From assembly GCF_040730185.1 (NCBI RefSeq), contig NZ_CP160402.1:4650001-4714000 (forward strand): a stretch of 64,000 bases of DNA, written 5' to 3'. Source of the stretch: Streptomyces sp. Je 1-332 (lineage in GTDB: Bacteria > Actinomycetota > Actinomycetes > Streptomycetales > Streptomycetaceae). The position numbers were made by a program, and so were the translations under genes. A model generated the notes under the pieces. That model had not been told where the DNA came from and did no database searches. It saw nothing but the letters and a program-made list of their open reading frames with translations. Below are positions 4,342 to 26,165 of this stretch, piece by piece (positions within the stretch are counted from its first letter, which is position 1; each line of letters begins with the position of its first letter).

Positions 4342-5364
4342 TCAGCGGTTGATGGACTGGATTTCCTCGACCGTGATGTTCTGCGTGGTGCCGAAGGCGC
4401 CGGCGGGCAGGTCTCCCCCCGGGACGCCCGTGCCCTTCCAGGTGACCTTCCAAGTGACGGTTGCCTTCAGCTCGTATGTTCCGTCGCCGGACGAGCGGAG
4501 GTAGGTCACGCCGCACGGTGGGATCTTTTCGGCGTTGCCCCGGGCGTAAGGGACGCCGATACTGCCGTCCTTGTTGATCGCGCACTCTCCCGAAGCGGGG
4601 TGGCTCTGCGCATCCTTCGTGCCGGGCTCGATCTTGAGCGATAGCGGTTCGGCGGTGGTCGTGGCCTCGATGTTCTGGCCGCCCGCGTTGAGGGACGCGG
4701 TCACTGACACGGGCTTGAACTTCGCCTTGTCGAGCCAGGCCCAGGTGTGGAGGTTCACCTTCGTGACGTTCTCGGGGGCGAGAGCGACCTTGGTACCGGG
4801 GATCTTGATCCGTGCGTAGGCGAGTTCGGCGAGGATCTCGGGCGTCACCGCGTTCTCGACCACCGGGGGTTCCCCGTTGTCGACCCAGAAGGGGGGCTTC
4901 TTGCAGGCGAAGATGTCGCCGCCCTCCTCGTAGGGCAGGGCGGCACGGTCCCAGAACATGCCCTTGCCCCTTTTGTCCATGTTGTAGTTCTTGTAGGGGT
5001 GGCCTTCGACGTAATGCTTCTCGAATTCGGCGACCGCTTCACCGAGCCCACTGGCGTGGGGGAGGTTCTTGGTCTTCATGTGGTCAGCTTTGAGCTGTTC
5101 CGGCGTGTACTTGGGTTCGTACCAGCACGGGGGCGGGGACCAGTCGGACGACTTCACCGTCATGGGGCCGCTGGACGGGCCGCTGCCGTTGCGGGAGAGG
5201 TCGAACCGGACTACGGACTCGATCTCTTCGTCGTTCCTGTCTCCGGACTGCTCGACGCTTCCTTCCGAGCCGCCGCCGGGCCCGTCTGCGAAGGCGGTGC
5301 TGGGCACGATCGAGATTCCTGTGGCTGCGAGAACCAACACAACGTTCCGCAGAGGCATCCTCAC
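4342..5364 (-). CDS. secreted four-cysteine protein, copy 1 of cassette
   Basis: 340 aa from a GTG (5364) that overlaps the lipoprotein stop as GTGA; an ATG two codons later (5358) is an alternative. A signal peptide (NVVLVLAATGISIVPSTAFA) precedes a Gly/Ser/Glu-rich segment. The mature part has four cysteines in PPPCWYEP, FACKKPP, SGECAIN and PPCGVTY, consistent with two disulfides. The same four cysteines, the YTPEQLK and YKNYN motifs and the C-terminal EIQSINR occur in the protein at 24463-25533, so they are paralogues. The C-terminal half alternates short beta-like segments and may be Ig-like. Function unknown. It is coupled to the upstream lipoprotein, so both probably act together outside the membrane. 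Confidence 0.75.
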   Translation of the reverse strand: MRMPLRNVVLVLAATGISIVPSTAFADGPGGGSEGSVEQSGDRNDEEIESVVRFDLSRNGSGPSSGPMTVKSSDWSPPPCWYEPKYTPEQLKADHMKTKNLPHASGLGEAVAEFEKHYVEGHPYKNYNMDKRGKGMFWDRAALPYEEGGDIFACKKPPFWVDNGEPPVVENAVTPEILAELAYARIKIPGTKVALAPENVTKVNLHTWAWLDKAKFKPVSVTASLNAGGQNIEATTTAEPLSLKIEPGTKDAQSHPASGECAINKDGSIGVPYARGNAEKIPPCGVTYLRSSGDGTYELKATVTWKVTWKGTGVPGGDLPAGAFGTTQNITVEEIQSINR

Positions 5365-6017
5365 GGCTGGCACTGGTCTGCTCCTCTTTCCGACGAGACG
5401 GCAGTGGTCTTCCACACGCCCTTAGTGCTCTTCTTGAGGCTGGCGTCGTAGAAGACGTAGGACTTTTTCGTCACCGGAGTTTTATCTGGCTTGCCGGTCT
5501 TGCGGTCCTTCCCGAACCACTTGCTCTCGTCGCCGCAATAGGTGAGCCGGGCGGACCCATCGGCCCGGAACTGCACATTGCGGTCGTAGAACCGCACCGT
5601 GCCGGTGACGGAGTAACCGTCGTCCACCACGGACTTGATCCACTGGATGGCGCTGGCCGCGGCGTCGCCCTCCGAGTAGAACTGGACCGCTTCGGAACTG
5701 GGTTCGCCCTTGATGATGGCGGAGTCGATAGCGCGGTGCCGTTCCGCGTTGTCCGCGAGCACGGCATCCTTCTTCGCGTCACCTGTCTTGGCGTCCTCGA
5801 ACTTGAGGATGTCGTCCTTCGGCAGCGTGATCTTCGGGCGATCGATGCCGGCGTCGGCCGGAGCGCTGGGGGACGCGGACTCCTTTGCACCGCCCTGGTC
5901 GGCGCCGGCGATCTTGTCGTTGTCCTTGGCGCCGTCGTCCCCGCTGCCGCAGGCCGTCAGGAGCAAGGCTGCGGTCGCGGCGAGCGCGGCAGTGACAGGC
6001 ATGGTGCGGCGGTTCAC
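5361..6017 (-). CDS. lipoprotein of cassette copy 1
   Basis: 218 aa from GTG 6017, preceded by GGGAG. Begins MNRRTMPVTAALAATAALLL with lipobox LLLTAC, then an Asp/Gly/Ser/Ala-rich linker and a domain starting around IDRPKITLPKDDI. Conserved motifs are YSVTGTVRFYDR, LTYCGDESKWFGKDRKTGK and a C-terminal GVWKTTAVSS. The IDRPKITLP/VDRPEITLP entry and the C.DES..F.KD.KTGK motif also occur in the lipoprotein at 25536-26165, and most of the latter in the partial one at the left edge. Its stop overlaps the start of the secreted four-cysteine protein gene. Probably an outer-leaflet partner of that protein; no enzymatic motif is visible. Confidence 0.8.
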   Translation of the reverse strand: MNRRTMPVTAALAATAALLLTACGSGDDGAKDNDKIAGADQGGAKESASPSAPADAGIDRPKITLPKDDILKFEDAKTGDAKKDAVLADNAERHRAIDSAIIKGEPSSEAVQFYSEGDAAASAIQWIKSVVDDGYSVTGTVRFYDRNVQFRADGSARLTYCGDESKWFGKDRKTGKPDKTPVTKKSYVFYDASLKKSTKGVWKTTAVSSERGADQCQP

Positions 6018-6169
6018 GGTCGGCTCCCGGTGGGGCGAGGGGTCTCCAAAGGGCCGACGTTAACTGTGGGGTTGTTGGTTCCGCCAGGGCCGCTAGCCTG
6101 ACAAGTCGCCTCATTTCGACGAACTGTCATCGTGTCGTGACTCACGATCGCCGAATCGGCCTCAGCTGC

Positions 6170-6919
6170 TCAACTCAGCTTCTTCTCCTGCGATTTGACG
6201 ACCGCAGGAAAGATCTTTGCGTTGCCGGTGCGCGCCTGCAGGTAGGCGTTGCCGTCTATCGCGAAGTAGATGGCGATGGTGTCGCCGTGACGGGTGGCCT
6301 GGGTGCGCACGGTGTGCGAGTCGCCCTGGTACTTGGTCGTGGCCCTGAAAGACAGGGACTCATCGGCTCCGGGTGTGGGCGCGGCCCCTGTGGTCTCGGA
6401 GGCGAGTGACTCGTACACGTTGGAGGCCTTGTCCCCCTTCGCCGTGAAGCCGCCGGCACAGGCGCTGACCGCCTTGGTCATGTCAGCCATGGCGTCCTGT
6501 GCCTCGCCGGGCGCGTACGTGGCGAGGGTGATGTAGGTGAAGGCGCCGGTGAACTCCTTCTCCTCGGCGACGCGGAGGTAGCTGTCCTGCGGGGCGCCGA
6601 CGGGAAACTGGCCCATCGCATAACCGAGCGGGGCACAGACGGACTTGTCGACCTTGACGTTGTCCCTCGACTTCGCGAAGGCGTAGTCGTCGGCGGGCTC
6701 CACGATGGCGTGAGCGGGCACTTCGTTCTTGGTCAGGGAGAGCTGCGCGGCCGATTTGGCGGGCTTCTTCTCCGCGGGAGGCGCTGAGGACTCTGCTGCC
6801 GCATTGTCGGAATCGCCACCCTTGCTGCCCTTGCCGTCATCCCCGCCTCCGCAGGCGGTGAGGACCAAGGCCGCGGTTGCGGCGAGCGCGGTGACGAGAG
6901 GCATGGCGCGGCGGTTCAC
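6170..6919 (-). CDS. lipoprotein, family D
   Basis: 249 aa from GTG 6919 with GGGAG 7 nt upstream. The first ~30 residues (NRRAMPLVTALAATAALVL, lipobox VLTAC) and the 20-odd bases before the start are nearly those of the lipoprotein gene at 5361-6017, but the mature domain differs. It has a Ser/Ala/Lys/Pro linker, then LTKNEVPAHAIVEPADDYAF, a cysteine in KSVCAPLGYAMGQ, a helical AQDAMADMTKAVSACAGGF stretch, and strands ending in DTIAIYFAIDGNAYLQARTG. The fold resembles lipoproteins of the LpqN/LppX-like sensor type only in general layout. It lies 151 nt upstream of the cassette lipoprotein on the same strand. Confidence 0.75.
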   Translation of the reverse strand: MNRRAMPLVTALAATAALVLTACGGGDDGKGSKGGDSDNAAAESSAPPAEKKPAKSAAQLSLTKNEVPAHAIVEPADDYAFAKSRDNVKVDKSVCAPLGYAMGQFPVGAPQDSYLRVAEEKEFTGAFTYITLATYAPGEAQDAMADMTKAVSACAGGFTAKGDKASNVYESLASETTGAAPTPGADESLSFRATTKYQGDSHTVRTQATRHGDTIAIYFAIDGNAYLQARTGNAKIFPAVVKSQEKKLS

Positions 6920-7241
6920 AGTCGGCTCCCGGTGGGGTGGGGGGGGTGTCTTCGGCGAGCCGACGCTATATGTGGGGGGTGGAGTGGCGGAAGACCCGGA
7001 CCGCGTGGTGGCTACCGAGGGGGTGCCGCTCGCTGTGGCGCGGACGGTCCGGCCCCGGTGATCACATTGCCGGTCGCGGGGGCCGAGGCATGTCGAAGCG
7101 CAGGGCGACCGAGACTGCCAGGGGCAGCGATTGACCGTACTGGAGTGGATCGTCCGTGTGCCGGGGGCTGGGTGTGTGGGTGCGGGCGGCGTCTGCGGGA
7201 GAGCGTGTGACTGCCCGGGAGGCCCGCCTAGGGTGGATTGC
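6920..7241. other. intergenic region between divergent genes
   Basis: 322 bp between the leftward lipoprotein and the rightward membrane protein. It carries the shared lipoprotein ribosome-binding region (CACCGGGAGCCGAC on the minus strand). A longer plus-strand reading from 7131 into the membrane protein gene was not accepted as coding because its third positions are not GC-biased. I see no other feature. Confidence 0.4.
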
Positions 7242-7757
7242 ATGTACATATCGCCCCGCGCACTCGAAGGTGGCCGGCGACACCGGCTGGCCGTCGGCAC
7301 GATGTTGTTTCTCTGCATGTCGCTCGTGGGGGTCGGACTTTCGGTCTCGGCCGTGAACGGTGCCGTTGGGGAACTCGCACGCGCCGGGCTCGTGGCCGGT
7401 GCCGTGTCGATGTTCGCCGTTGCCTGGTGGTGTGCCCGGTACTGGTACGCCGCCTTCTGTCAGGGGCGGCGTGCGGAACCGGTGCCGGATCCCAATCCGT
7501 GGCCGTGGGTGCTGCCTTGGGCGGTCGCCGTCGTGGCGCTCTTCGTCACCGGGATACGGCAGTTGGCGAGCGGGGACGACGGGGGCTGGTTCTCGCTGGG
7601 GGTCGGGACCTTTATGACGATGCCGTTGATCGTCGGTGGGGTGGCGGGGCTGTGGGGGATGGTTCGGGCGTCCCGGTGGCGGACCCAGGGGCCGGCGGCC
7701 TCTTCCGGGCACGCCGAGCCGGTGCGGCCGCGTCGTGACTGGGGCCCGATCGGCTGA
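7242..7757 (+). CDS. small integral membrane protein
   Basis: 171 aa from ATG 7242, chosen because GGGTGG stands about 7 nt upstream and the upstream in-frame residues are Cys/Gly-rich junk. Four hydrophobic segments are visible near residues 18-38, 44-64, 86-106 and 120-140, separated by short loops; the C-terminus is basic and Pro/Arg-rich. No family recognised; it resembles many uncharacterised Streptomyces four-helix membrane proteins. It stands alone between the lipoprotein genes and the toxin region. Confidence 0.65.
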   Translation: MYISPRALEGGRRHRLAVGTMLFLCMSLVGVGLSVSAVNGAVGELARAGLVAGAVSMFAVAWWCARYWYAAFCQGRRAEPVPDPNPWPWVLPWAVAVVALFVTGIRQLASGDDGGWFSLGVGTFMTMPLIVGGVAGLWGMVRASRWRTQGPAASSGHAEPVRPRRDWGPIG

Positions 7758-7788
7758 GTGGCGTTTGTGTCCGCGCCGCCGCCGCGCT

Positions 7789-7830
7789 GTCGTCGCACGC
7801 CGCGATATGCAGCTGGTCCCGGCGGCCCAA
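7789..7830. repeat. 42-bp direct repeat, left copy
   Basis: Starts GTCGTCGCACGCCGCGAT and ends CGGCCCAA. It matches 9427-9468 at about 36 of 42 positions in the same orientation. The two copies bracket exactly the orphan immunity gene and RHS relic. The remainder of 7758-8054 holds no recognisable gene. Confidence 0.6.
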
Positions 7831-10450: not shown

Positions 10451-13400
10451 CTACGGCCTCTTTGCCCAGGGGTATGGAATGACCTGGTCATAGTTGTGTG
10501 AACCATCTTTGCGCCTGCCGAAGTAGGCAATGTTCCCATCGCCATCGACTACGACCCGTAGCTGGCTCGTGGGGTTTCCGTTGTCGTAGATGGGTGATCC
10601 TGCCCACCGTTGTCCAGCTCGGCTGTTACCTCCTTGGTAGAAGTCGGGCCGCTGGTTGTGCGCTGGGCCGGTCATTCGTTGTGGGTAGTTCGGGTTCCTC
10701 ACGATGCGCCCCACCAGATCATGCGCATCCTGCGGAGTGTTGAACCAAGCTGCACGATCCGCGTTCCCCTCGTTGCGCCTGTCGACCGCATCAATTGAAT
10801 AGTTCTCATCCGGTACCCATTCACTCGGGGGCGGATCTCCGCACTCTGGTGCGAGACCGAGGGGATCTGACCATGTGCATGGATTGTGTGGGTAGGTAAG
10901 CGGGTTGTCCGCGGGGCTGAGCCCGAGTGGATCTGGAGAGTGGTAACGGCCTGTGGCAGGGTCGTAGTACCGAAAGTAGTTGTAGTGCAGACCGGTTTCC
11001 GGGTCGAAGTACTGACCTGGAAACCGAAGTGGTGTATAGGCGACGCTTTCCGCAGCCCAGGCTGTCGTACCCCAAAGAGCGGAGCGAGTGTGCCAAGCAA
11101 CGCTCCCGTCTTCATCGATCAGTTCCGTCGGGGTGCCGATGAGGTCGGTGACAATGGCGTAGAAGCGTTCGTCAATCTGCTCCTGGTCGGCGTCGCCCGC
11201 GCATTTGCGTTCCGTCTGGACGAGCGGCCGTGTCCCGTCGTGATCCCATGTGAGAACGACAGGGCCACCGAGCGCTTCATCGTGGGTCGTCTGCTCACAA
11301 AGGGTAGTGCCATCCCAGGTGAAGTCGACACGCTCGGCGACCGTCTTCCCGTCGTCCGAGATCCGCTCCTTGGCGATACGCCGCCCGAGGGGGTCGTACG
11401 TATAGCGCCACTCCGCGCCGTCCGGGGTGATGACCGACGTGAGCCGGTCCTCGGCATCCCAGGTGTATCGCCAGGTGTCAGGCTTGCGAGAAAGGCGGGT
11501 CCTCTGACGGAGCACGATGCGCCCTGCGGCATCGTGCTCGTACCGGGTGCTGCCGGACCGCAGGATCCTCGTCCCCGTGTAGTCGCGCTGCCCTTGTTCT
11601 GTCTGATCGGAATGCGCCGCCGGCCAGGAAGCGTCCGTCTGGTTGCCTGCCGAGTCATATGCATAGCTCTCGCGCCATCCATCGGCTCGGACCCCTGTGA
11701 CACGGCCAACCTTGTTCAGCTGGAAACGTGTTGTGCCGCCGCGCAGGTCGTCCTCGATGCCCGTCACGTACCCGTCCGCTCGGTACCGATATGTACGACC
11801 CTGGATGAGACGCTGCTGCGGGCCCGTGACGGTCTGGGTTTCCGGCCGACCCCGCTCGTCGAAGGTCTGGGCGAAGGTAAGGTGCTCGCCTATGTGACGG
11901 GCGATCTCGCGCCCTGCCGCATCGTGCTCGAAACGGAGGCTCCGGCCTGCCGCTGTCAGCTCAGTACGGTTTCCGACAGCGTCATACGACCATGTGCTGA
12001 CGGCCCCTGACGGCGTGGTGCGCCGCACACGGCGGCCGAGACCGTCGTAGTCGTAGCTCAACTCCAGGCCGGCAACTGTCTCCGAGCGCAGTTGACCGGT
12101 CTCATCCCAGAGCAGCTCGAGTATGGAGCTCGGTGCGGCCGCTCGCAGCATGCGGCCCGACACATCGTACGAGAACTCGGTTATCCGCCCGGCTACGTCC
12201 TTCCTCGTCACTTGCCCGAACGCGTCACGCCTGTACCGAATGGTCTCACCGAGCGGAGTCGCCCGCTCGGCCAAACGGCCTGCCGCATCATGCGTGTAGC
12301 GCTGCACCCGGCCGTCGAAATCTGACTCCTCGACCAGCCGGCCAGCCGGGTCGTACTTGTAATCCCAAGTCAGACCTTGCGGATTGGTGACCTGGGTGAG
12401 CCGCAGTTCGGTGTCGTACGTGAATTCGTGACGCACCCCGTCAGCACTGGTTCGCGCCGACATGACATCGAAGTTCGAGAATTCGAAGTGTGAGACACCA
12501 CCATTTGCATCCGTACGATGTGTGCAGTTTCCTTCCCCGTCGTAGAGCCACACCTCCTCCGAGCCGTCGGCCTCGACGCGGCGCGAGAGTCTGCCCTCGA
12601 CCGTCCACTCCGTGCGGGACCGCGCACCGAGAGCGTCGGTCAGGACGATGTGGCGCCCGAACGCGTCACGCTCGTAGGCGCTCACCGCCCCCAGTGCGTC
12701 TGTCACCTCGACGACCAGGCCCGCCTTGTCATTCTGCAGCAGGGTGAGGTGTCCAAGAGCATCGGTGAAACGGGTGACACCACCGGCCTGGTCGTAGCTG
12801 TAGCGCGTGGTGCGGCCAACCGGGTCGGTGACTGCCTCAAGATTCCCGGCCTCGTCGTACTCCCGGACCCACCGAGAACCGTCGAGGTCAACTACCAAGG
12901 TCGGCAACCCCAGTTCGTTGTATTCCGCGGATGATTCCGTGCCATCTGGCAGCGTCACACATGTCACGCGGCCGTTCTCGCCGTAGGCGTATCGCGTGAC
13001 GTGGCCCAATGGGTCTGTTACCGACAACAGTTGCTGTTCATCGTCCCATTCCTGGTCGGTGACGTTGCCCAGCGGGTCGGTCTCGCGTATGAGTCGGAAG
13101 CCTTCGTTGTGTTCGTAGGTGCGGGTGTGGCCGTGAGAATCGGTGACACGGGTGGTGTGGGTGATGGAGTCGTAGATGAGAGTGGAGGCGAGGGCATTGC
13201 CAGTGCCTCCGGTTGCCGTGACCCGGCCCTGGTCGTCGTACGCGTACCAGTACGTGGTCTCGTTCCGGTCGGTCCAGGAGGTGATGCGGCCGACGTCGTC
13301 ATAGGTGTAACGCAGCGGCAGGCCAGACGAGTTGGTCTCCTCGGTGAGGTGGCCGTCCGTGTCGTAGCCGAACGTGATCAGCGTGGTGCCCGCCCCGGTC

Positions 13401-14871: not shown

Positions 14872-15186
14872 TCAGCCTCGCTTGTCGGCGCGCAGAGCAG
14901 CTTCGATCAGCACGTCCAGCGCGTCGAAGGCCTCGGACAGGTCGGTCATCAGTTTCGCCTCTGCCTCCCACTCATCGGCGAGGTCCTTCGCGAGATCGGA
15001 GAGCGTCTCCATGCCCTCGCGCACATCATCGGTCGCGCTCATCAACGCGCCCAGCGCGCCCAGGGCCGACAAATCGTGCGACTCCGCCTTGAAATCGTGC
15101 AAGGGCTTCGCGATGTGATGCGGAGCCTTGCGCAGCAGCGGTGCCGCCTTCGCTATCGACGCCGACTCCTTGCCCAGATCACCCAT
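14872..15186 (-). CDS. small helical partner of the RHS toxin (WXG100-like)
   Basis: 104 aa from ATG 15186 (MGDLGKESASIAKAAPLLRK). An ATG nine codons upstream is possible, but a GGGGGCGGG tract lies about 10 nt before the chosen one. The protein is entirely helical with heptad-like spacing and ends DVLIEAALRADKRG; no signal peptide. It precedes the RHS toxin by 5 nt. Small helical proteins in this place are the WXG100-type partners or chaperones of type VII-delivered toxins (known for LXG/RHS toxins), and I infer that role here. It lacks a clear W-x-G. Confidence 0.65.
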   Translation of the reverse strand: MGDLGKESASIAKAAPLLRKAPHHIAKPLHDFKAESHDLSALGALGALMSATDDVREGMETLSDLAKDLADEWEAEAKLMTDLSEAFDALDVLIEAALRADKRG

Positions 15187-16924: not shown

Positions 16925-17662
16925 GTGAAGATCCAAGAGCGTACGGGGGCGGGCAACAGCCGTTCCGCCGCGCCGGTTCAGCCAGCGGTAGGTGAGCGCC
17001 TTCCCGCGCCGCCTCGCGAGCGCAAACCGGCACTCGCCGCCCTGGCCGTTCTGCTCATCCTCATCGGCGCCCTCGGCGCCACCGTTCTCGTGCTGCGCGC
17101 GGGGGAGCGGGTGGAGGTCGTGAAGGTGACCGCGGAGATCGCGGCGGGGGAGTCGGTGAGTGAGGACAACATCTCCTCCGTCATGGTCGCCGACGACGCG
17201 GGCATCAACTACGTGAAGTGGTCGCAGGTCCCCGAGCTGAAGAAGCTCAAGGCCACCAACACCATCCCCAAGGGCGCCCTCGCCGTGGGCGAGATGTTCT
17301 CCGGCAAGAGCGGGCTGCCCGCGGGCAAGTCGGCCGTCGGCGTCTCCCTCAAGGAAGGGCAGTACCCCGCGAGGGGTCTGAAGTCCGGCGACAGCGTGGA
17401 CGTCTACCAGGTCGGCGACTCCACCTCCGGAGGGAGCTCCAGCGACAAGGGGACCGGCGGTTCCGCCGGCACCGGCACGAGTGACTCACCCATCGTCTCG
17501 GCCGCCCGCGTTACCGCTGTCGCGGACAAGAGCGATGCCACGGTGAGCACCGGCTCCCTCGGCATCACGCTCCTGGTGGACAGCGCCGACGCCGCAGCCG
17601 TCACCAGGGCCGCGTCCGCCGGTGCCGTCTCTCTCGTCCAAGTGTCTCCCAACGGCAACTAG
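16925..17662 (+). CDS. cpaB: CpaB/RcpC-like Flp pilus assembly protein (SAF domain)
   Basis: 245 aa from GTG 16925, with GGGGAG 7 nt upstream. A basic, Pro/Arg-rich N-terminus precedes one membrane helix (LAALAVLLILIGALGATVLVL). The extracytoplasmic part contains an SAF-type domain (VVKVTAEIAAGESVSEDNIS, then TNTIPKGALAVGEMF) and a C-terminal region with DSVDVYQVGD followed by a Gly/Ser-rich insertion and LGITLLVDSADAAAVTRAAS. In Gram-negative Tad systems CpaB/RcpC supports the secretin; here there is no outer membrane, so the protein probably stabilises the pilus passage through the cell wall (inference). First gene of the Tad operon, 17 nt before the CpaE-like gene. Confidence 0.75.
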   Translation: MKIQERTGAGNSRSAAPVQPAVGERLPAPPRERKPALAALAVLLILIGALGATVLVLRAGERVEVVKVTAEIAAGESVSEDNISSVMVADDAGINYVKWSQVPELKKLKATNTIPKGALAVGEMFSGKSGLPAGKSAVGVSLKEGQYPARGLKSGDSVDVYQVGDSTSGGSSSDKGTGGSAGTGTSDSPIVSAARVTAVADKSDATVSTGSLGITLLVDSADAAAVTRAASAGAVSLVQVSPNGN

Positions 17663-17679
17663 AGGCGAGTAGAAGAGAC

Positions 17680-18594
17680 ATGGCGCTCATTGCTCTCGCC
17701 GCTGACAAGGGGTCTCCCGGAGTCACCACCGCGGCCGTCGCGCTCGCAGCCGTCTGGCCGCGGCGCGTCCTCGTCGCGGAGACCGACCCCGCCGGCGGCG
17801 ACCTGGTCTACCGCAGCGCCGCCGCGCACGGCGGCCCGCTCAACCCCAACACCGGGATGCTCAGCATCGCGGCCACCGCCCGTCGTGGGCTTGTCCCCGA
17901 TCAACTCTGGGACCACACACAGCCGTTGAGCGGCGGGCTCGAAGTGCTCGTCGGGCTCGGTGTGGCCGAGCAGGCCGCCGGGCTCGCGGGTCTCTGGCCG
18001 ACGCTCGGCCGCGCCTTCTCGCAGCTCGCCGACTCACCCCACGCGCCCGCCGACGTCATTGCTGACTGCGGACGCATCAGTGGGGACACTCCCGCCGTCG
18101 AGCTCTTCCCGCAGGCGGCCCTCGTGCTGCTCGTCTCGCGGACCGAGCCCGAGGCCATCGCCCGCGTACGCGACCGTGCCGCGGCCCTCGCCGCCAAGCT
18201 GCACGGCGGTTCACGCGGGGCCGCGTCGCTGGCGACCCCGCTCATCGGCGTACTCCTGATCGCCGATCCGTCGACATCCGCGAAGCTCGTCCACCAGGTG
18301 AACGACATGCTGATGGCCGCGCAGACCGGCGCCCGCGTCGTCGGCACCCTCGCCGAAGACCCGGCGGGCGCCGAGCAGTTGGCAGGGCGGAAGCGCGGGC
18401 GTCTCGACAAGTCCATGCTCATTCGCTCGGCCCGCAAGGTGACCGTCGACCTTTACCAGCAGTACGGCGCCGCCTGGGCCAACCCGAACACGGGCGTCCA
18501 CGGAGCCATGGGCGCTCACGGCCACGGCACCGTGGGCATGCAGGGCACGCAGGGCACGCAGGGCATGCCGGGCACCCACGGGACCGGCCGATGA
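17680..18594 (+). CDS. CpaE/MinD-like ATPase-fold protein with degenerate P-loop
   Basis: 304 aa. It opens with the MinD/ParA fold (ALIALAADKGSPGVTTAAVA), but the P-loop reads KGSPGVTT where active members have KGGxGKTT, so the phosphate-binding lysine is replaced by valine while the signature lysine is kept. Further fold motifs remain: VLVAETDPAGGDL and ADVIADCGR. ATP hydrolysis is therefore doubtful. The C-terminus is a low-complexity tail of Gly/Thr/Gln/Met/His. CpaE homologues position Tad pilus machinery at the pole in Caulobacter; here the protein sits between CpaB and the TadA ATPase and overlaps the latter by 4 nt (ATGA), so it belongs to the same complex or regulates it. Confidence 0.75.
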   Translation: MALIALAADKGSPGVTTAAVALAAVWPRRVLVAETDPAGGDLVYRSAAAHGGPLNPNTGMLSIAATARRGLVPDQLWDHTQPLSGGLEVLVGLGVAEQAAGLAGLWPTLGRAFSQLADSPHAPADVIADCGRISGDTPAVELFPQAALVLLVSRTEPEAIARVRDRAAALAAKLHGGSRGAASLATPLIGVLLIADPSTSAKLVHQVNDMLMAAQTGARVVGTLAEDPAGAEQLAGRKRGRLDKSMLIRSARKVTVDLYQQYGAAWANPNTGVHGAMGAHGHGTVGMQGTQGTQGMPGTHGTGR

Positions 18595-19901
18595 GCGTTC
18601 CCGTCGATCATCAGCTCGTCAAGCGGTTCCGGCAGGACGCCGGTGACCGCATCGCCGAGCAGCGCCGCCTGGACCAGGTCTCCGGCGTCACCCCCATGTC
18701 GGGCGAGGACGAGCGGCAGTACGCCCGCGCCGTCATCGCCCAGATCCTGGAGGAGTACGCCCGGATAGAGATCAACGCCGGGCGCACCCCGCTGGACGCC
18801 GAGACCGAGGAGAAGTACGCGGCCGCCGTGCACGCGGCGCTCTTCGGCGTCGGACGGCTCCAGCCGCTGCTCGACGACCCCGAGGTCGAGAACATCGACA
18901 TCAACGGCTGCGACCAGGTCTTCGTCGGCTACGCCGACGGCCGCGAGACCAAGGCCGATCCGGTCGCCGAGACCGACGAGGAGCTCGTCGAGCTCATCCA
19001 GATCCTCGGCGCGTACTCCGGTCTCTCCTCGCGCCCCTTCGACTCCGCCAACCCGCAGCTCGACCTCCGGCTCCCCGACGGCTCACGTCTGTCGGCCGTC
19101 ATGGACGTCACGCGACGCCCCGCGCTCTCCATCCGACGTGCCCGCATGGGCAAGGTCTTCATGTCGGACCTGGTGGGCAACGGCACGCTGACCCCCGAGG
19201 TCGCCCACTTCATGGCATGCGCGGTGCGGGCCCGCAAGAACATCATGATCGCGGGTGCGACGAACGCCGGTAAGACGACTCTGCTGAGGGCCCTCGCCAA
19301 CGAAATCCCGCCGCACGAGCGTCTGGTGACCGTCGAGCGCGCTCTGGAGCTCGGCCTCGACCAGTTCGCCGACCTGCACCCGAACGTCGTCGCGTTCGAG
19401 GAGCGGCTGCCCAACTCCGAGGGCCAGGGCATGATTTCGATGGCGGAGCTCGTACGCCGTTCGCTCCGTATGAACCCCTCCCGCGTCATCGTCGGTGAGG
19501 TACTCGGCGACGAGATCGTGACGATGCTGAACGCGATGTCCCAGGGCAACGACGGCTCGCTCTCCACGATCCACGCCAACAGTTCGAGTGAGGTCTTCAA
19601 CCGCATCTCGACGTACGCACTCCAGGCCACCGAGCGGCTGCCCATCGAGGCCAGCCAGATGCTCGTGGCCGGAGCAGTCAACTTCGTCGTCTTCATCCAG
19701 CGGCGCAACAACTACCAGACCGGCGGCAAGCTCCAGCGCATGGTGACCTCGGTCCGCGAGGTCAACGGCGTCGACGGCCGCGTCCTGTCCAGCGAGGTCT
19801 TCGCGGAGGCCGCGAACGGGCAGGTCGTCGCGCACGCGCCGATCGCCTGCATGGACGACCTGGCCGCGTTCGGCTACCGCCCCGCCGGGCAATGGGGGTG
19901 A
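18591..19901 (+). CDS. tadA: TadA/CpaF secretion ATPase
   Basis: 436 aa, the hexameric type II/IV-like ATPase that powers Tad (Flp) pilus extension. The N-terminal ~180 residues form the helical and PAS-like N-domain (EVENIDINGCDQVFVGYADG). The Walker A motif is GATNAGKTT at 222-230; the Asp box and Walker B region include ERALELGLDQF and PSRVIVGEVLGDE, and the His box is STIHANS. Length fits the family. It starts inside the end of the CpaE-like gene and is followed 7 nt later by tadB, so the motor and its membrane platform are made together. Confidence 0.95.
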   Translation: MSVPVDHQLVKRFRQDAGDRIAEQRRLDQVSGVTPMSGEDERQYARAVIAQILEEYARIEINAGRTPLDAETEEKYAAAVHAALFGVGRLQPLLDDPEVENIDINGCDQVFVGYADGRETKADPVAETDEELVELIQILGAYSGLSSRPFDSANPQLDLRLPDGSRLSAVMDVTRRPALSIRRARMGKVFMSDLVGNGTLTPEVAHFMACAVRARKNIMIAGATNAGKTTLLRALANEIPPHERLVTVERALELGLDQFADLHPNVVAFEERLPNSEGQGMISMAELVRRSLRMNPSRVIVGEVLGDEIVTMLNAMSQGNDGSLSTIHANSSSEVFNRISTYALQATERLPIEASQMLVAGAVNFVVFIQRRNNYQTGGKLQRMVTSVREVNGVDGRVLSSEVFAEAANGQVVAHAPIACMDDLAAFGYRPAGQWG

Positions 19902-19908
19902 GCACGAC

Positions 19909-20970
19909 ATGAACTCACTCGGCTCGATGGGCGGCGTCTTCTCGCTGCCCGTCCTGTACGCACTGGGCTGCGGCATCGCGGTCGGCGGAGGCCTCGCGGT
20001 CCTCGCGATCGCGCTGCGCGGGCTGCCGGTGAAGCCGGAGCACGAGAAGCAGAAGGCCAGCGAGCGGATGAGCGAACTCATCCGGTTCGCGGGACAGCGC
20101 GGCTCGCTCGCGATCGGCGTGGGCCTCGTGGTCCTTCTCCTCACGCGCTGGGCGGTGGCGGGCATCGCGTCCGGCGTCCTCGTCTTCTTCTGGGACAAGC
20201 TGTTCGGCGGCGCGTCCGAGGAGCGGGCCCAGATGAAGCGCGTCGAGGCGCTCGCCGCCTGGACGGAGTCGCTGCGCGACACCATCGCGGGCGCGGTCGG
20301 CCTTGAACAGGCCATCCCGGCGTCGGCGCGGGCGGCGGCACCCGTCCTCCGCCCCCACCTGGACGCCCTGGTGGACCGACTGCGTGCGCGTACGCCGCTT
20401 CCCGAGGCCCTGCAGATACTGGCCGACGAGATCGACGACGCGTCGGCGGACATCATCGTGGCGGCGCTGATCCTGAACGCGAAGCTGCGCGGCCCCGGAC
20501 TGCGCCAGGTCCTCGGCGCCCTCGCCAAGTCGGCGCGCGAAGAGGTCGACATGCGCCAGCGCGTGATGTCGCAGCGCGCCTCGACGCGGCGCTCGGTGCA
20601 GATCGTGGTCGCGGTGTCGATCGCGTTCGTGCTCGGCCTCTCGATCTTCAACCGCGACTTCGTCGAGCCCTACGGCACGGCCGTCGGCCAGCTCGTACTC
20701 GCCTGCGTCTGCGGCCTGTTCGCGCTCGGCTTCTGGTGGCTGCGCAAGCTCTCGACCGTGGAGACCCCGGACCGCTTCCTGGTCCGCGACGAGCCCGGCG
20801 TGCAGTTCGTGCGGCCGCGGGGGCCGGGTGCTGTGCCCGGGGCGGGCGCTCCGGGTGAGCAGGCACCGCTGACGGGCCCGGCGGGGCCGTACGGCCAGCC
20901 GCAGCCGGGCGCGAGCCCTGGCCAGCCCGGCCAGCCCGGCTACTCGAATCCCGAGGGGGTACGTCGATGA
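19909..20970 (+). CDS. tadB: TadB inner-membrane platform protein
   Basis: 353 aa from ATG 19909. A T2SSF/GspF-type fold: two N-terminal membrane helices (~14-34 and ~62-85), a cytoplasmic four-helix domain (EALAAWTESLRDTIAGAVGL to LAKSAREEVDMRQRV), and two C-terminal helices around 235-285. The last ~70 residues are a Pro/Gly/Gln-rich tail, unusual in length for TadB. TadB pairs with TadC to form the platform on which TadA acts. The stop overlaps the tadC start (ATGA). Confidence 0.9.
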   Translation: MNSLGSMGGVFSLPVLYALGCGIAVGGGLAVLAIALRGLPVKPEHEKQKASERMSELIRFAGQRGSLAIGVGLVVLLLTRWAVAGIASGVLVFFWDKLFGGASEERAQMKRVEALAAWTESLRDTIAGAVGLEQAIPASARAAAPVLRPHLDALVDRLRARTPLPEALQILADEIDDASADIIVAALILNAKLRGPGLRQVLGALAKSAREEVDMRQRVMSQRASTRRSVQIVVAVSIAFVLGLSIFNRDFVEPYGTAVGQLVLACVCGLFALGFWWLRKLSTVETPDRFLVRDEPGVQFVRPRGPGAVPGAGAPGEQAPLTGPAGPYGQPQPGASPGQPGQPGYSNPEGVRR

Positions 20971-21902
20971 GCCTGACGATGCCGATAGTGATCGGCGCCA
21001 TCATGGGCCTTGGCATCTACGCCCTCGTCCGTGCCCTGATGCCCTCCAAGCGGAGTGCGGTCGCCACGGTCGCGCGGATCGACGCGATGCGGGCGCGGGG
21101 GGCGGCGTACGAGTCGCATCGCTCGCCTGCCGGGGACAGCAAGAAGGCCTCCGGACGCCTGGAGACGACGCGCTCCCGGGTGGGCACACGGGTCGCCGAG
21201 TTCTACCTCCAGCAGGGCTGGGAGCAGCGGTCGCTCCGTGCCGACCTGGCGGTGCTGGACCGCAGCTGGGAGAAGTTCCTGGCGACGAAGACGCTGCTGG
21301 CGGCCGCGGGGCTCTTCTTCGGGCCGTTCATGTTCGTCATCGTCTGGACGCTGGGAGTCGGTCGCAGCCCGATCATCCCCGTATGGCTCGCGTTGATGTT
21401 CGGCGTCATCTTCTTCTTCCTTCCCGACCTCGAAGTACGTCGGGACGCCGCGGACAAGCGCCGCGACCTGCGCCGCGTCATCGGTGCCTATCTGGACCTG
21501 GTGTCGATGAGCCTGGCGGGCGGCCGCGGCCTCCCGGAGGCCCTGATGGCGGCGGCTGAGGTCTCCGACGGATGGGCGACGCAACGTATCCGAAGCGCCC
21601 TGGCCGACGCGCGGATCACCGGCATCAGCCAGTGGCAGGCGCTCGGTTCGCTCGGCGAGGAGCTGGGCGTCGAGGAGCTCAAGGACCTGTCGGCTTCTCT
21701 CGGCCTGGTGGCCGACGACGGAGCCAAGGTGCGCGAGTCGCTCGCCTCCCGCGCGGAGACGATGCGCCATCGCGAGATGGCCGAGATCGAGGGCAGCGCG
21801 GGCGAGAAGTCGCAGTCGATGCTCGTCGCTCAGCTGCTCCTGTGCGCGGGCTTCCTGGTCTTCCTCATCTTCCCGGCGGCGATGCGCGTGTTCCAGGTCT
21901 AG
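20967..21902 (+). CDS. tadC: TadC inner-membrane platform protein
   Basis: 311 aa. One N-terminal membrane helix (MPIVIGAIMGLGIYALVRAL), two central helices (~108-155), then a T2SSF cytoplasmic domain (YLDLVSMSLAGGRGLPEAL, SLGEELGVEELKDLSASLGL, MRHREMAEIEGSAGEKSQSM) and a C-terminal helix ending AAMRVFQV. Partner of TadB in the Tad platform. Overlaps tadB by 4 nt and is followed 86 nt later by the pilin gene. Confidence 0.9.
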   Translation: MSLTMPIVIGAIMGLGIYALVRALMPSKRSAVATVARIDAMRARGAAYESHRSPAGDSKKASGRLETTRSRVGTRVAEFYLQQGWEQRSLRADLAVLDRSWEKFLATKTLLAAAGLFFGPFMFVIVWTLGVGRSPIIPVWLALMFGVIFFFLPDLEVRRDAADKRRDLRRVIGAYLDLVSMSLAGGRGLPEALMAAAEVSDGWATQRIRSALADARITGISQWQALGSLGEELGVEELKDLSASLGLVADDGAKVRESLASRAETMRHREMAEIEGSAGEKSQSMLVAQLLLCAGFLVFLIFPAAMRVFQV

Positions 21903-21988
21903 CTCCAGCGGTCTTTACGAGCGAAGGACGGGCCGGCCGACGGGGGCGGCCCGACAACCTCCCCCCACTCCTGAGAGGACAACTCACC

Positions 21989-22240
21989 ATGAACGGACGG
22001 AACTTCAGCACCGGCAACCCGGCTGTGGACTTTCTTGTCACCTTCCTGAAGGGCCGCGTGCAGCGTGCCCGCTCCGGCGAGCTCGACCGCGGTGCGTCCG
22101 CGGTCGAGTGGGTCATCATCTCGGCGGTCGTCGTGGCGATCGTCGGCGTGGTCGCCGCCGTCATCAACGGCGCGCTGAAGGGCGGCGCCGAGGACGTCAA
22201 GAAGTGCATCGAGGGCGCCGACCAGGACGGCACCTGCTGA
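21989..22240 (+). CDS. Flp-type pilin
   Basis: 83 aa from ATG 21989, with GAGAGGAC about 9 nt upstream. The type IV pilin-like cleavage region is ELDRGASAVEWVIISAVVV: a basic leader, Gly, then a hydrophobic helix with glutamate as the fifth residue after the Gly. The mature pilin would be short (about 45 residues), as is normal for Flp pilins, and ends DVKKCIEGADQDGTC with two cysteines. The prepilin peptidase at 29752-30477 is the likely processing enzyme. The 86-nt gap before this gene is the largest inside the locus and may hold its own ribosome loading or processing site. Confidence 0.8.
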   Translation: MNGRNFSTGNPAVDFLVTFLKGRVQRARSGELDRGASAVEWVIISAVVVAIVGVVAAVINGALKGGAEDVKKCIEGADQDGTC

Positions 22241-22274
22241 TCAGCCGTAGACCGGGGAGCGAAGGCGGATACGA

Positions 22275-22727
22275 GTGCACGGGCGTGTGAAGCGATGGGT
22301 ACGCCGCAGGGTGGAGGCAGCCTCCACCCGCGGTGAATCCGGCATGACCGCGATCGAGTTCGTGCTGCTCACCCCGGTGCTCTTCTTCATGATCTTCGCT
22401 ACGGTGCAGTTCGCGCTGTACTTCTTCGCGGACCATGTCGCCCAGGCCGCGGCCCAGGCGGGCGCGCGCAAGGCGCGTGCGACGGCCGACGAGAATCCGG
22501 GCGGGTGGCGGGGCGACGCGCGTGACGTGGTCGACGACTACATCCAGCAGCTGGGACCGCAGTTGGTCCTCGGCCCGGACGTGAAGACGGTGGAGCCGAA
22601 GGCGAACACCGTCGGCGTGGAGATCACCGCGAAGGTGCCCTCTGTCTTCCCCGGCCTCGACATGACGGTGCGCGCGCAGTCGTCCGGGCCGGTGGAGCGG
22701 TTCGTCGAGGAGGGTGAGGGCGGCTGA
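22275..22727 (+). CDS. tadE: TadE-like minor pseudopilin
   Basis: 150 aa from GTG 22275, after GGGGAGCGAAGG. A basic leader of ~22 residues, then GESGMTAIEFVLLTPVLFFM, the TadE cleavage site (Gly followed by a hydrophobic helix with Glu5). The extracytoplasmic part has a helical AQAAAQAGARKARATADENP stretch and a beta-rich end. TadE proteins are minor pilins or assembly initiators in the Tad pilus. Its stop overlaps the next start by 1 nt. Confidence 0.88.
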   Translation: MHGRVKRWVRRRVEAASTRGESGMTAIEFVLLTPVLFFMIFATVQFALYFFADHVAQAAAQAGARKARATADENPGGWRGDARDVVDDYIQQLGPQLVLGPDVKTVEPKANTVGVEITAKVPSVFPGLDMTVRAQSSGPVERFVEEGEGG

Positions 22728-23224
22728 TGAGGAACGTATGGGCTGAGATGTCGGGCCGTGCGTCGAACCGGCTGCCGGAGCAGGTAACCAACGGGTCGTC
22801 GGAGGACGCGTCGGACCACACATCGGTCGGCGCCTCGGACCGGGGGCTTTCGACCGTCGAAGTGGTCATTCTCGCGCCCGTGATGATCCTCTTCATCCTG
22901 CTCCTGGTGGCCTTCGGACAGCTCGTCGACGCCCGGGGGGCCGTCGACGGCGCGGCGCGTGACGCCGCGCGCGCCGGCTCGATCCAGAAGGACAGCGGCA
23001 CGGCGATGGCGGAGGCGCGTGCGGCCGCCGTGGCCGACCTCGAGGGCTCATGCGTCGGCCCGGTCACCGTCAACCAGACCAGCCAGGGCTTCGAACCCGG
23101 CACGTTCTTCACGGTGGAAGTCAGCTGCGAGGTACGGGGGTTGGGCATGCTCGGCCTCGACATGGAGACGACACTGAAGGCCAACTTCAGCTCGTCGCTG
23201 GACCCCTACCGGAGGTCGGCGTGA
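22727..23224 (+). CDS. second TadE/TadF-like pseudopilin
   Basis: 165 aa. A long polar leader of ~40 residues precedes DRGLSTVEVVILAPVMILFI, again a Gly followed by a hydrophobic helix with an acidic residue at +5. After the helix come AVDGAARDAARAGSIQKDSG, typical of the TadE/F superfamily, and a domain with two cysteines (EGSCVGP and VSCEVRG). It overlaps both neighbours, by 1 nt and by GTGA. Likely a minor pilin; TadF is the usual name for the second such gene. Confidence 0.8.
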   Translation: MRNVWAEMSGRASNRLPEQVTNGSSEDASDHTSVGASDRGLSTVEVVILAPVMILFILLLVAFGQLVDARGAVDGAARDAARAGSIQKDSGTAMAEARAAAVADLEGSCVGPVTVNQTSQGFEPGTFFTVEVSCEVRGLGMLGLDMETTLKANFSSSLDPYRRSA

Positions 23225-23706
23225 GCACGACTCCTTGTTTCAGCTCTCGTATGCGTGAATGGCATGAATGGGCGGCCTCCCGTCGCGAACGCCTCGACGA
23301 CCGGGGTTCGGGCGCGGGCGCAGTCATCATCTTCGCGATCGTCTTCCTCACCCTCTCCGCTTTCGTCATCGACGGCGGCATGTCCATCTCCAAGCGGGAG
23401 CGTGCGGCGGACATCGCGGAACAGGCCGCGCGCTACGCCGCGCAGGACCTGGACACCGAGGGCATCTACGAGGGCGCCAAGGGGGCGCCCATCAACTACG
23501 AGAACTGCGGCGCACGAGTACAGGCGTACGCACGCTCGACGGGCATGCGAGGCGGGGACGTCGCGGCGACGCACTGCGTGACGGCGAACGCGGATCAGGT
23601 CGAGGTCGAGGTCCAGATGACCTACAGCCCGGTGTTCACGGGGATGTTCTACGGCGGCGACGTGACGGTGCAGGGACGTGCCGTGGCGGAGAACGCGGTG
23701 GGCTGA
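23221..23706 (+). CDS. TadG-like pilus assembly protein
   Basis: 161 aa from GTG 23221, overlapping the previous stop (GTGA). The segment DDRGSGAGAVIIFAIVFLTLSA is the hydrophobic, pilin-like N-terminal helix of TadE/G-like proteins, but the acidic +5 residue is missing, as usual for TadG. Then FVIDGGMSISKRERAADIAEQ, a helix, two cysteines (NCGAR, THCVT) and a beta-rich C-terminus. Shorter than Gram-negative TadG, which carries an extra VWA-like domain. Last gene of this pilus block; the next feature is on the opposite strand. Confidence 0.82.
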   Translation: MSTTPCFSSRMREWHEWAASRRERLDDRGSGAGAVIIFAIVFLTLSAFVIDGGMSISKRERAADIAEQAARYAAQDLDTEGIYEGAKGAPINYENCGARVQAYARSTGMRGGDVAATHCVTANADQVEVEVQMTYSPVFTGMFYGGDVTVQGRAVAENAVG

Positions 23707-23910
23707 GCGGGCTGGGAACGCCGTTCTGCGTTCCGCTTCACTCGGGCTTCCACTGGGTGGCTGTCCGTTACCGGTGTTGACCTTGAGCAGGGAATCGTTC
23801 CTGATCTTGCTCAGCGGAACGGGGTTGGGCAGATTGGCCTCGCGCGCGATGTCCCTCGTGCCCCGGCCGTGAGCTGGTACGCGGCGGAGCCTCCAGGGGG
23901 ACGCGCCACC

Positions 23911-24435
23911 TCACTGGGGAAGCGACAGGAAAGCGCGCACTTCGTCCATGCTCGTCTGCCACTCGGAAATCTTGTTTCCGTCCTCGTCCACGGTTGTGCG
24001 CGGCTCCACGGATCGCCATGGTTCCTCGGGAAGAAACTCCTCCGTCAGTTCGTCCAGGAAGATGAGCGAGTTCTGGACGTACACGTCTTCTCCGTGCCTG
24101 TAGAGAGGCCAGCAGAAGATGAAATTGCTGTTCGTCGGGTCTGCGATGGACGAAATGAGGCAGGTACTGGCGGTACTTCCTTCATCAAGCACATGCAGGG
24201 CCGCGGACCAGCTGTCCCGGTAGTCGTCTTCGCTCCAGTACGTCAGGTCCATCGGAAAGTCTTCCGTGAAGTCGCGCATCGTGATCCTGCCGATGGCGCT
24301 GGGCGTGACTTGGGATTCGGCACCCCCAGCGCAGTCGTCCAGCGACGCTGATGAGGCCACGCGGATGGAGAAGCCGTTATTCCTTGATGTAGTTGAGGTC
24401 TGCGACGAGGGCGTCCCAGTTGTTGTGGTGCCCAT
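23911..24435 (-). CDS. probable orphan immunity protein (CdiI_4-like)
   Basis: 174 aa if ATG 24435 is used (AAGGG 7 nt upstream). The first ~19 residues are Thr/Ser-rich and do not look like part of the fold, so translation may begin later, near NNGFSIRVASSA. The core reads GRITMRDFTEDFPMDLTYWS, then SWSAALHVLDEG, TCLISSI, SNFIFCWPLYRHGEDVYVQN and WRSVEPRTTVDEDGNKISEW; this resembles the CdiI_4-type immunity family from contact-dependent inhibition systems (my recollection of the pattern, moderately sure). No toxin gene is adjacent; a short overlapping frame just upstream may be a toxin remnant. It sits between the Tad block and cassette copy 2. Confidence 0.5.
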   Translation of the reverse strand: MGTTTTGTPSSQTSTTSRNNGFSIRVASSASLDDCAGGAESQVTPSAIGRITMRDFTEDFPMDLTYWSEDDYRDSWSAALHVLDEGSTASTCLISSIADPTNSNFIFCWPLYRHGEDVYVQNSLIFLDELTEEFLPEEPWRSVEPRTTVDEDGNKISEWQTSMDEVRAFLSLPQ

Positions 24436-24462
24436 GGTGCGCCCTTGCTCCTCGTGCGCCGG

Positions 24463-25533
24463 TCAGCGGTTGATCGACTGGATCTCCTGGACGTCCATGT
24501 CCTGGGTCGTCTCGAAGGTGCCGTCAGGCAGCGTGTCGCCTGTGCCGCCCGAGCCCTCCCAGGAGATTTCCCAGGTGATCGATGCCTTCAGCTGGTACGG
24601 CTTTCCGTTGCTCGCTCGGAGGTACTTGATGCCGCACGGAGGGTCCTGCTTCGACTTGCCCTTGGTGTAGGGCGTGCCGATGCTGCCGTCTTCGTTGATC
24701 TTGCATTCGCCCGATGCCGGGAATGTCTCGGCGTCGGCTGTGCCGGGCTCCAGGTGGAGGCTCTTCGGCGTCGCCGTCGTCTCCGCCCACAGGCCCGTGT
24801 TCGGAAGCTCCGCGCGGACCCTGACGTCCTTGAAGGTGCCCTTGTCCAGCCAGACCCAAGTGGGCAGATTCACCGTCGACTTGGCCTCGGGCTTCAGCTC
24901 GACCTCGGTGTCGGGGACCTTCACCTTGTCGTAGGCGTACTCGGCGAGCATCTTCGGCGTGGGGGCGTGCGGGATGTCGGGGACCGTTCCCGCGTCCTGC
25001 CAGAACATGATGCGGCCGCAGTCCCAGGAGTCCGGGTCGCTGTCGTCCGGTGCGACACCGCGCCAGAAGTAGCCGTCCTTGCCGATGTTGTAGTTCTTGT
25101 AGCCCTCGGCGTGACTGTTCTCGTCGTCGAAGTTGTTGCTGTCCTCGCCTTTGTCGTAGTGATCGATGAAGAGCGAGTCCGACCAGAACTCGTGAATCCC
25201 GGCGTCGTCGACTTCGCCGGCCTCCGCCGCCTTCTTTAGCTGCTCGGGCGTGTAGGCGGGCTCGTACCAGCATGCCGGGGGCTTCCAGTTGGGGTCGATC
25301 GGCGCCAGGTTCCCCTTCTTGCCACCCCCGTCGCCGCCACTCTCGTACGAGATCTTGATCGAGGAATGGGTGACACCGGCCCCGAGGTTGCCCTCGTCGT
25401 CCACGCTGCCGCCGCCTTCGTGGCCCGGCCCGCCGAGCGCCAGCGCGGGCGAAGGAAGGAGGGCCGAGGCGATCGCCAAGGGGGCGATGACCCGGACCAC
25501 GGCGGTGCCTATGGTGCTGCGAGTGGAGCGCAT
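24463..25533 (-). CDS. secreted four-cysteine protein, copy 2 of cassette
   Basis: 356 aa from ATG 25533 (GGGGG lies 9 nt upstream); ATG 25542, overlapping the lipoprotein stop, is an alternative. Signal peptide with IAPLAIASALLPSPALALGG, then a Gly/His/Asp-rich segment. Four cysteines occur in PPACWYEP, DSWDCGRI, SGECKIN and DPPCGIKY, in the same order and context as in copy 1 (4342-5364), with YTPEQLK, YKNYN, and the C-terminal EIQSINR also shared. The middle is longer and acidic (DHYDKGEDSNNFDDENSHAE). Function unknown; coupled to the lipoprotein gene before it. Confidence 0.75.
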   Translation of the reverse strand: MRSTRSTIGTAVVRVIAPLAIASALLPSPALALGGPGHEGGGSVDDEGNLGAGVTHSSIKISYESGGDGGGKKGNLAPIDPNWKPPACWYEPAYTPEQLKKAAEAGEVDDAGIHEFWSDSLFIDHYDKGEDSNNFDDENSHAEGYKNYNIGKDGYFWRGVAPDDSDPDSWDCGRIMFWQDAGTVPDIPHAPTPKMLAEYAYDKVKVPDTEVELKPEAKSTVNLPTWVWLDKGTFKDVRVRAELPNTGLWAETTATPKSLHLEPGTADAETFPASGECKINEDGSIGTPYTKGKSKQDPPCGIKYLRASNGKPYQLKASITWEISWEGSGGTGDTLPDGTFETTQDMDVQEIQSINR

Positions 25534-25535
25534 GA

Positions 25536-26165
25536 TCAGCATCCCCCAGGGGCGGTCTCTACCGAAGTCGTGATCCAGACGCCGTCGTCGCTCTTCTCCA
25601 GCGCGGTGCGGTACTGGACCTTGGGGGACTCGCCTTCGGGAGTCCCCTCCTTCTTGCCGGTCTTGAGGTCCTTGCTGAAGCCCTTGCTCTCGTCCACGCA
25701 GTAGAAGAGAGTCGCCCGGCCCTTCTCGCGGATCTCTGCCTCGGGGTTGAAGGCCTTGACCTCGCCGGTGATCGTCAGCCCCTTGTAGCCCTCGACCCAC
25801 TTCTCGCCGCTCGCGAGGGCGGATCGGGCGCTGTAGAAGGCCAAGTAGTCGGCCTTGGGGTCGGCTTCACCGATCGCGGCGTACGTCCCGCGCAGCCGCT
25901 CCTTGCCGTCGTTCAGGATGGACTGGATCTTGGGGTCGCTGTCCGTCCAGCCTTGGAAGTCGGCCTCGAAGGACTTGGGCAGCGTGATCTCGGGCCGGTC
26001 GACGTCCGACGACTCCGACGCGGTGGGCGTCGGCTTGGCCGACCCGTTGCCCGCCCCCTCGATCTCATCCGAGGGACTGTCGTCCCCACCACCCCCACAG
26101 GCACTCAGGAGCAAGGTCGCGCCAGCCAGCAGAGCGGCGACGACGGGCACAGTGCGACGGGCCAC
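25536..26165 (-). CDS. lipoprotein of cassette copy 2
   Basis: 209 aa from GTG 26165, with GGGGG about 8 nt before. Signal VARRTVPVVAALLAGATLLL with lipobox LLLSAC, then a Gly/Asp-rich linker and VDRPEITLPKSFEADFQGW. It shares with the lipoprotein at 5361-6017 the VDRPEITLPK entry, LTITGEVKAFNP, LFYCVDESKGFSKDLKTGKK, and a C-terminal GVWITTSVET. It probably works with the four-cysteine protein encoded immediately downstream. Its 5' region does not share the GGGAGCCGAC leader of the copies further left. Confidence 0.8.
   Translation of the reverse strand: MARRTVPVVAALLAGATLLLSACGGGGDDSPSDEIEGAGNGSAKPTPTASESSDVDRPEITLPKSFEADFQGWTDSDPKIQSILNDGKERLRGTYAAIGEADPKADYLAFYSARSALASGEKWVEGYKGLTITGEVKAFNPEAEIREKGRATLFYCVDESKGFSKDLKTGKKEGTPEGESPKVQYRTALEKSDDGVWITTSVETAPGGC

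Follow-up and report, generated by a model that had tools for sequence, protein, structure and literature searches.

The stretch of DNA analysed here, called the window, is a segment of 64,000 nucleotides (nt) from Streptomyces sp. Je 1-332, corresponding to positions 4,650,001-4,714,000 of its 8.27-Mb single-contig genome, in which genes were called with a simple, untrained G+C-position caller. Two cassettes, A and B, were found where a first-pass annotation had placed them, both on the minus strand and both consisting of a lipoprotein gene followed by the gene for a secreted four-cysteine protein, hereafter the partner (Table 1). The lipoprotein and partner genes form one unit. The cassettes had been described as paired paralogues, and the alignments, with 42% identity between the lipoproteins (E 3e-41) and 47% between the partners (280 columns, E 9e-80), put the likeness of both members well beyond chance. 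The stop of the lipoprotein gene meets the start of the partner gene, as had also been reported: in cassette A the TGA shares 4 nt with the GTG of the partner, and in cassette B there is a 2-nt gap, which becomes an overlap of 7 nt with the alternative upstream ATG as start. The third lipoprotein of the family is indeed cut by the left edge, its own partner lying just beyond the window (genome 4648965-4649960).

Four intact pairs were present in the genome, namely A, B, the left-edge pair and one at 3.155 Mb, together with a decayed cassette at 1.078 Mb in which the lipoprotein and partner remnants are in different frames. The lipoprotein family comprised six genes, two of them without a partner (at 5.650 Mb and at 3.157 Mb, the latter divergent from the 3.155-Mb cassette). 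None of the Pfam and NCBIfam models compared with both pair members was over cut-off, and the public names of the listed relatives were hypothetical protein, lipoprotein, secreted protein and enoyl reductase.

Table 1. Features of the window, in window coordinates
Feature	Position	Strand	Remarks
Third family lipoprotein, cut by window edge	1..604	-	ends 41 bp outside window
Small protein heading type VII effector operon	920..1300	+	ESX-like by position and size; no Pfam match
Type VII effector candidate	1315..2544	+	Pfam PF21725 T7SS_signal over cut-off
Cassette A secreted four-cysteine partner	4342..5364	-	ends EIQSINR; start overlaps lipoprotein stop by 4 nt
Cassette A lipoprotein, putative NTF2-like family	5361..6017	-	lipobox LLLTAC/G (cut at slash); family alignment
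Further lipoprotein gene beside cassette A	6170..6919
RHS-repeat protein, WXG100_2 at N-terminus; candidate type VII polymorphic toxin	10451..14866	-
Small protein directly before RHS gene	14872..15186	-	ESX-like by position; no Pfam match
Tad (type IVc/Flp) pilus cluster	16925..23706	+	RcpC/CpaB, CpaE-like, TadA, TadB, TadC, Flp-like, TadE, TadE, TadG-like
CdiI_N immunity-like protein beside cassette B	23911..24435	-	E 4e-46
Cassette B secreted four-cysteine partner	24463..25533	-	ends EIQSINR; alternative start 25542
Cassette B lipoprotein	25536..26165	-	lipobox LLLSAC/G (cut at slash); NTF2-like model
Large BTAD-domain protein, start uncertain	26334..29642	+	divergent from cassette B; recurrent Tad cluster neighbour

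Predicted properties of the paired proteins

The mature domain of the lipoprotein was predicted to be NTF2-like, with an alpha+beta cone fold. In the model of the cassette B lipoprotein, the predicted local distance difference test (pLDDT) ranged from 91 to 99 per block from residue 61 onward, and the predicted layout comprises a lipobox, a long disordered linker and the NTF2-like domain. A lipobox was present in 154 of 156 lipoproteins, and both window copies contained the motifs previously quoted for them (DRP.ITLPK and C.DES..F.KD.KTGK). The matches to NTF2-like structures had sequence identities of 7-14%.

The partner carries a signal sequence that appears, by eye, to be of the Sec type; its model is beta-rich, with a C-terminal domain (residues about 205-350) that is probably Ig/PKD-like, and the conserved tail was modelled with less certainty. 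The motifs CWYEP, SGEC.IN, PPCG, YTPEQLK and YKNYN were all found, and the three quoted cysteine contexts are joined by a fourth, FAC/WDC (C154 in A and C172 in B), in agreement with the four equivalent cysteines of the first-pass annotation. The Streptomyces locus set consisted of the best 78 of 303 confirmed loci and was biased toward relatives of cassette B, therefore counts from it are not frequencies. Exactly four cysteines were found in 97/104 Streptomyces partners long enough to count, and in 28/36 partners from other genera. The tail E[IV]Q[SA][IV]N[RHK] closed 95/106 Streptomyces partners; the exact EIQSINR, identical in A and B as had been claimed, was not universal (39/106 in Streptomyces and 0/60 in the other genera).

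Two classes of protein were rejected for the pair on these properties. A type IV pilin or pseudopilin is at odds with the Sec-type signal (by eye), the lipobox and the NTF2-like and beta-rich models, no prepilin predictor having been run; a type VII substrate or small WXG/Lap partner is at odds with the lack of Pfam WXG, LXG or T7SS_signal matches and with models that contain no helical hairpin.

Pairing and association with Tad genes

Co-occurrence was determined in an even draw of 61 genomes across the genus Streptomyces, using 69 of the 79 partner rows (52 full-length and 17 weak, one of the latter, in G341, being full-length by coverage; 10 short fragments were omitted). The 52 full-length partners were distributed over 15 genomes and all of them (52/52) had a lipoprotein gene directly upstream, while lone lipoproteins accounted for 15/79 matches. 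Homologues occurring mostly singly, with cysteines and tail unconserved, had been named as the outcome that would speak against the module, and this was not seen. The genomes with a full-length partner were exactly those with a TadA of at least 84% identity (15/15 versus 0/46), and no identities between 50% and 84% occurred among the TadA matches listed. For 30 of the 52 full-length copies there was no TadA within 20 kb along the contig; the copy nearest to TadA was 137 kb away in G305 and 648 kb away in G341. On a tree of Nuo proteins 11 changes of the trait were needed (shuffled mean 13.5, least 9), so the trait would have changed many times on this tree, some branches of which are weak.

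The 16 short-form partners went with TadA homologues of 36-50% identity, 14 of them with such a homologue within 2 kb (distances partly worked out by hand; the misses were on contig C5 of G332 and contig C30 of G323). Two of the 46 genomes lacking the full-length partner, G297 and G349, had a TadA of 47-50% identity plus a short-form partner. A second, diverged TadA homologue with its own short-form partner at most 2 kb away was also noticed in G326, G344, G308, G297, G349 and others.

The other-genus set comprised 60 of the 74 genomes with a match, mostly the better-scoring ones, with one locus each. A same-strand lipoprotein open reading frame (ORF) was located at most 1.5 kb upstream of the partner in 54/60 loci at E 0.05 and in 51 at 1e-5, as compared with 0/625 mock positions, and three of the six unpaired loci were at contig ends. 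At least three Tad genes were contained in the fetched stretch at 31/60 loci. The order Tad genes, BTAD gene, lipoprotein and partner was observed in L128-L136 (L137 begins at the BTAD gene), and an alternative order had the partner followed by RcpC, CpaE, TadA and onward. In the window itself, the CpaE-like and Flp-like genes had no Pfam match and were named by position.

Distances between lipoproteins were correlated with those between partners in 100 pairs (r 0.58; the largest value in 500 shuffles was 0.11). At loci in the BTAD slot the mean identity was 67% for partners and 48% for lipoproteins, and none of the 108 locus pairs with lipoproteins more than 72% alike had partners below 50%; by these comparisons the lipoproteins look as if they had been swapped before a partner that varies less. 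Dissimilar lipoproteins before similar partners were noticed among the BTAD-slot loci of L020-L097 and L148-L163. Elsewhere, the pair follows sdhCDAB-like genes in L077, L080, L088, L090 and L093 (L090 and L093 by eye, the others by gene sizes).

Type VII genes around the pairs

The T7SS_signal and WXG100_2 models matched six genes in the whole genome, T7SS_signal being over cut-off at genome positions 4645804, 3158204, 3840521 and 4651348, and WXG100_2 in the RHS proteins at 4664426 and 1077433. Each of the four intact cassettes, and likewise the remnant, had one of the six genes at a distance of no more than 10 kb (9.7 kb for cassette B, barely inside the limit); conversely, five of the six genes, all but 3840521, had a cassette or the remnant at such a distance. 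The 10-kb surroundings of the six genes make up about 1.2% of the genome, and the chance of three separate places hitting them was about 2 in a million by our own arithmetic, with a radius picked after the map had been viewed. Immediately after the decayed cassette (L011 8200-9000) come a small ESX-like gene and an RHS gene.

An FtsK/SpoIIIE ATPase gene, whose product has an FHA-like match at the N-terminus (PF16697, 32 bits against a cut-off of 33.2), was located to the left of the window, at genome 4640657-4645279 (L009 6658-11283); a gene that is kinase-like by eye was noticed upstream of this FtsK/EssC-like ATPase. The ATPase was matched at E 1e-100 or better in 27/61 Streptomyces genomes, 12 of them outside the 15 Tad genomes, which all had a match. 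Eleven of these 12 pair-less genomes showed only 46-62% identity and may have ATPases of other kinds, and the twelfth, G296, showed 63-75% in a genome that is 79% complete; the Tad genomes G325 and G305 reached only 52% and 61%. The ATPase and TadA were at most 35 kb apart in 13/14 genomes with both on one contig, and 1.27 Mb apart in G307; for these distances 21 of 44 ATPase rows were used, one per genome, the remaining rows being excluded along with six genomes (five without this Tad, with ATPase identities of 46-51%, and the fragmented G344). Twelve of the 52 full-length copies were at most 20 kb from the ATPase.

A small ESX-like gene followed by an effector candidate, on the same strand, came after the pair in, for example, L055, L070, L075, L079, L085, L086, L089, L155 and L158. 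A scan of 70 of 92 downstream ORFs at E 0.01, made after BTAD genes, members of the pair and a small number of further ORFs had been taken out by hand, gave matches to WXG100 (n = 12), T7SS_signal (n = 11), WXG100_2 (n = 3), EspC (n = 3) and RHS repeats (n = 2), with multiple matches per ORF possible. For 16 full-length copies from seven evenly drawn Streptomyces genomes, type VII or RHS matches were found in 12 of the surrounding stretches of 11-20 kb. The corresponding matches were found in only 4/60 other-genus loci, with type VII and RHS references that all came from this genome, so that distant homologues may escape them.

Interpretation and alternative explanations

With a confidence somewhat above even, we read the pair as two extracytoplasmic proteins that together form an undescribed accessory of the Tad (type IVc) pilus of actinobacteria and that have been multiplied near type VII effector genes. 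The first-pass annotation had suggested an undescribed envelope module linked to type VII or Tad function; both links were found, the primary one being to Tad and the one to type VII being secondary and seen in Streptomyces. The pairing, the dependence on Tad within the genus sample, the predicted folds and the type VII adjacency were computed here, and the mechanism that we infer would run as follows. The anchored NTF2-like domain would hold the partner, most simply through the conserved C-terminal peptide of the latter, which is plausible as a binding tag; the partner, stapled by disulphides, would stand in the cell wall, where it may give the pilus a collar or dock, by analogy with the task of secretin and pilotin in the Tad systems of Gram-negative bacteria. 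The unit would have multiplied in Streptomyces, with copies near type VII effector genes, about a fifth of them directly before one, and the copies near effectors would probably link the release of effectors, or their display, to the surface structure built by Tad. Because extra Streptomyces copies are often near type VII effector genes, the two machines may cooperate. PDV1 binds PARC6 by its C-terminal end. The analogy for tail binding is based on the titles of Protein Data Bank entries, in which the NTF2-like PARC6 domain binds PDV1.

Several observations weigh against the Tad-accessory reading. In the structure comparison the ARC6/PARC6 match tied with CaMKII hubs, so that peptide binding is not specifically indicated by the fold, and the full tail was not kept in the other genera, where its core was retained in 28/60 partners. 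No Tad gene was found in the fetched stretch at 28/60 other-genus loci, and one more had a single distant match; by eye, the pair or partner of L146, L147, L190, L191, L196 and L201 adjoins genes resembling those of pantothenate, NAD and CoA biosynthesis, with no Tad gene in the stretch. The pairing in these genera is partly circular, 14/60 upstream neighbours having helped to build the lipoprotein profile (41/46 were paired without them). Within Streptomyces, the lines for full length and for 84% TadA identity were set after the list had been viewed, the tree was built from NuoG, F, E and D of 58/61 genomes with some weak branches, and Fisher p (2.5e-7 for the ATPase with Tad) is uncorrected for descent. 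The next gene after the pair was a same-strand type VII match in only 21/104 copies (counted by hand), and 3 of the 16 copies from evenly drawn genomes, L159, L160 and L162, all from G089, were without any Tad or type VII match. Finally, 88 of the 327 locus pairs with partners more than 72% alike had lipoproteins less than 45% alike, which is unexpected for a fixed two-part scaffold; such apparent exchange of lipoproteins is unexplained by the accessory reading.

The partner might instead be cargo, an adhesin on or near the Tad pilus for which the lipoprotein serves as membrane tether or folding platform; presented by the pilus, it would be useless without Tad, and the diversity of the lipoproteins would reflect different display partners. 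A ligand-binding adhesin should vary more than its tether, yet in the BTAD slot the partner is the steadier member, and no LPXTG-type wall anchor was seen in it, by eye only; we regard this explanation as rather unlikely. The apparent exchange of lipoproteins before a steadier partner would also suit a self-protection role, in which the NTF2-like lipoprotein and its partner shield the envelope of the producer from type VII-delivered toxins of its kin. Candidate type VII effectors are indeed found among the neighbours, as is a CdiI_N protein, and both an NTF2-fold immunity family, Imm-NTF2, and a lipoprotein immunity protein, Imm65, have been described (PMC3482391). The role becomes quite improbable with 56/60 other-genus loci lacking a match to the type VII and RHS references of this genome, which may miss distant ones, with 12 of the 27 ATPase-match genomes lacking a full-length pair, and with neighbouring effector candidates of several kinds. 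The first of these counts also led to the rejection of a toxin immunity protein with strict toxin linkage, and the second to that of a type VII core component.

That the pair is a passenger of a gene-rich variable region, moving with islands and functionally linked to neither Tad nor type VII, would fit the highly variable BTAD-Tad interval between strains and the copies at unrelated sites, such as those that by eye lie beside sdhCDAB-like genes. It is already disfavoured, and in our view very improbable, given that across 61 genomes and 11 changes the presence of the pair matched that of Tad exactly, even for distant copies, and given the proximity of short-form copies to a TadA homologue. 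A bolder extension of the accessory reading, which we consider decidedly improbable, is a joint Tad-type VII machine of Streptomyces, in which the ATPase of the type VII system would take effectors across the membrane only and Tad would then carry them through the wall or present them to rivals, with the pairs as effector-docking adaptors. If true, it would account for the pairs near or heading effector operons, the many pairs per genome, the diversification of the lipoproteins and the finding of no full-length pair without this Tad. To our knowledge, it is not settled how a thick wall is crossed by Tad pili and type VII effectors in the absence of an outer-membrane secretin. A gene pair present at both Tad and type VII loci, and tracking Tad through 11 tree changes, makes the link between the two testable.

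The locus shares RcpC, TadA, TadB, TadC, TadE and TadG with described Tad/Flp (type IVc) operons and their neighbours, and neither an NTF2-like lipoprotein nor an Ig-like secreted partner appears by name in the component table given there (PMC3244431). From pilins the pair differs by its Sec and lipoprotein signals, assigned partly by eye, in place of prepilin signals. The RcpA-TadD secretin-pilotin pair of Gram-negative Tad systems likewise joins a lipoprotein and a second exported protein in the service of one pilus (PMC10499894), an analogy for which no homology is claimed; unlike in that pair, the lipoprotein here is predicted to be NTF2-like. Among NTF2-like envelope proteins, VirB8, TraM, TcpC and the intermembrane-space domain of ARC6/PARC6 differ from it by its lipobox anchor and long linker, at the low identities given above. 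The T7SSg and T7SSh systems of Bacillota are always beside Tad genes, their authors being undecided between function and coincidence, and their ATPases are without FHA domains; the available text of that survey of type VII variants has no mention of Streptomyces (PMC11217815). Here, by comparison, the host is Streptomyces, the ATPase has an FHA-like N-terminal match and a gene pair is common to both kinds of locus; the present locus is an actinobacterial case of a Tad-type VII neighbourhood with a shared gene pair.

The further lipoprotein gene beside cassette A matched the family only over residues 2-51, in the signal region. Its relatives (42-47% identical) were noticed near Tad genes in L022, L038, L041, L061, L062, L084 and L149, where they mostly adjoin TadRcpC.

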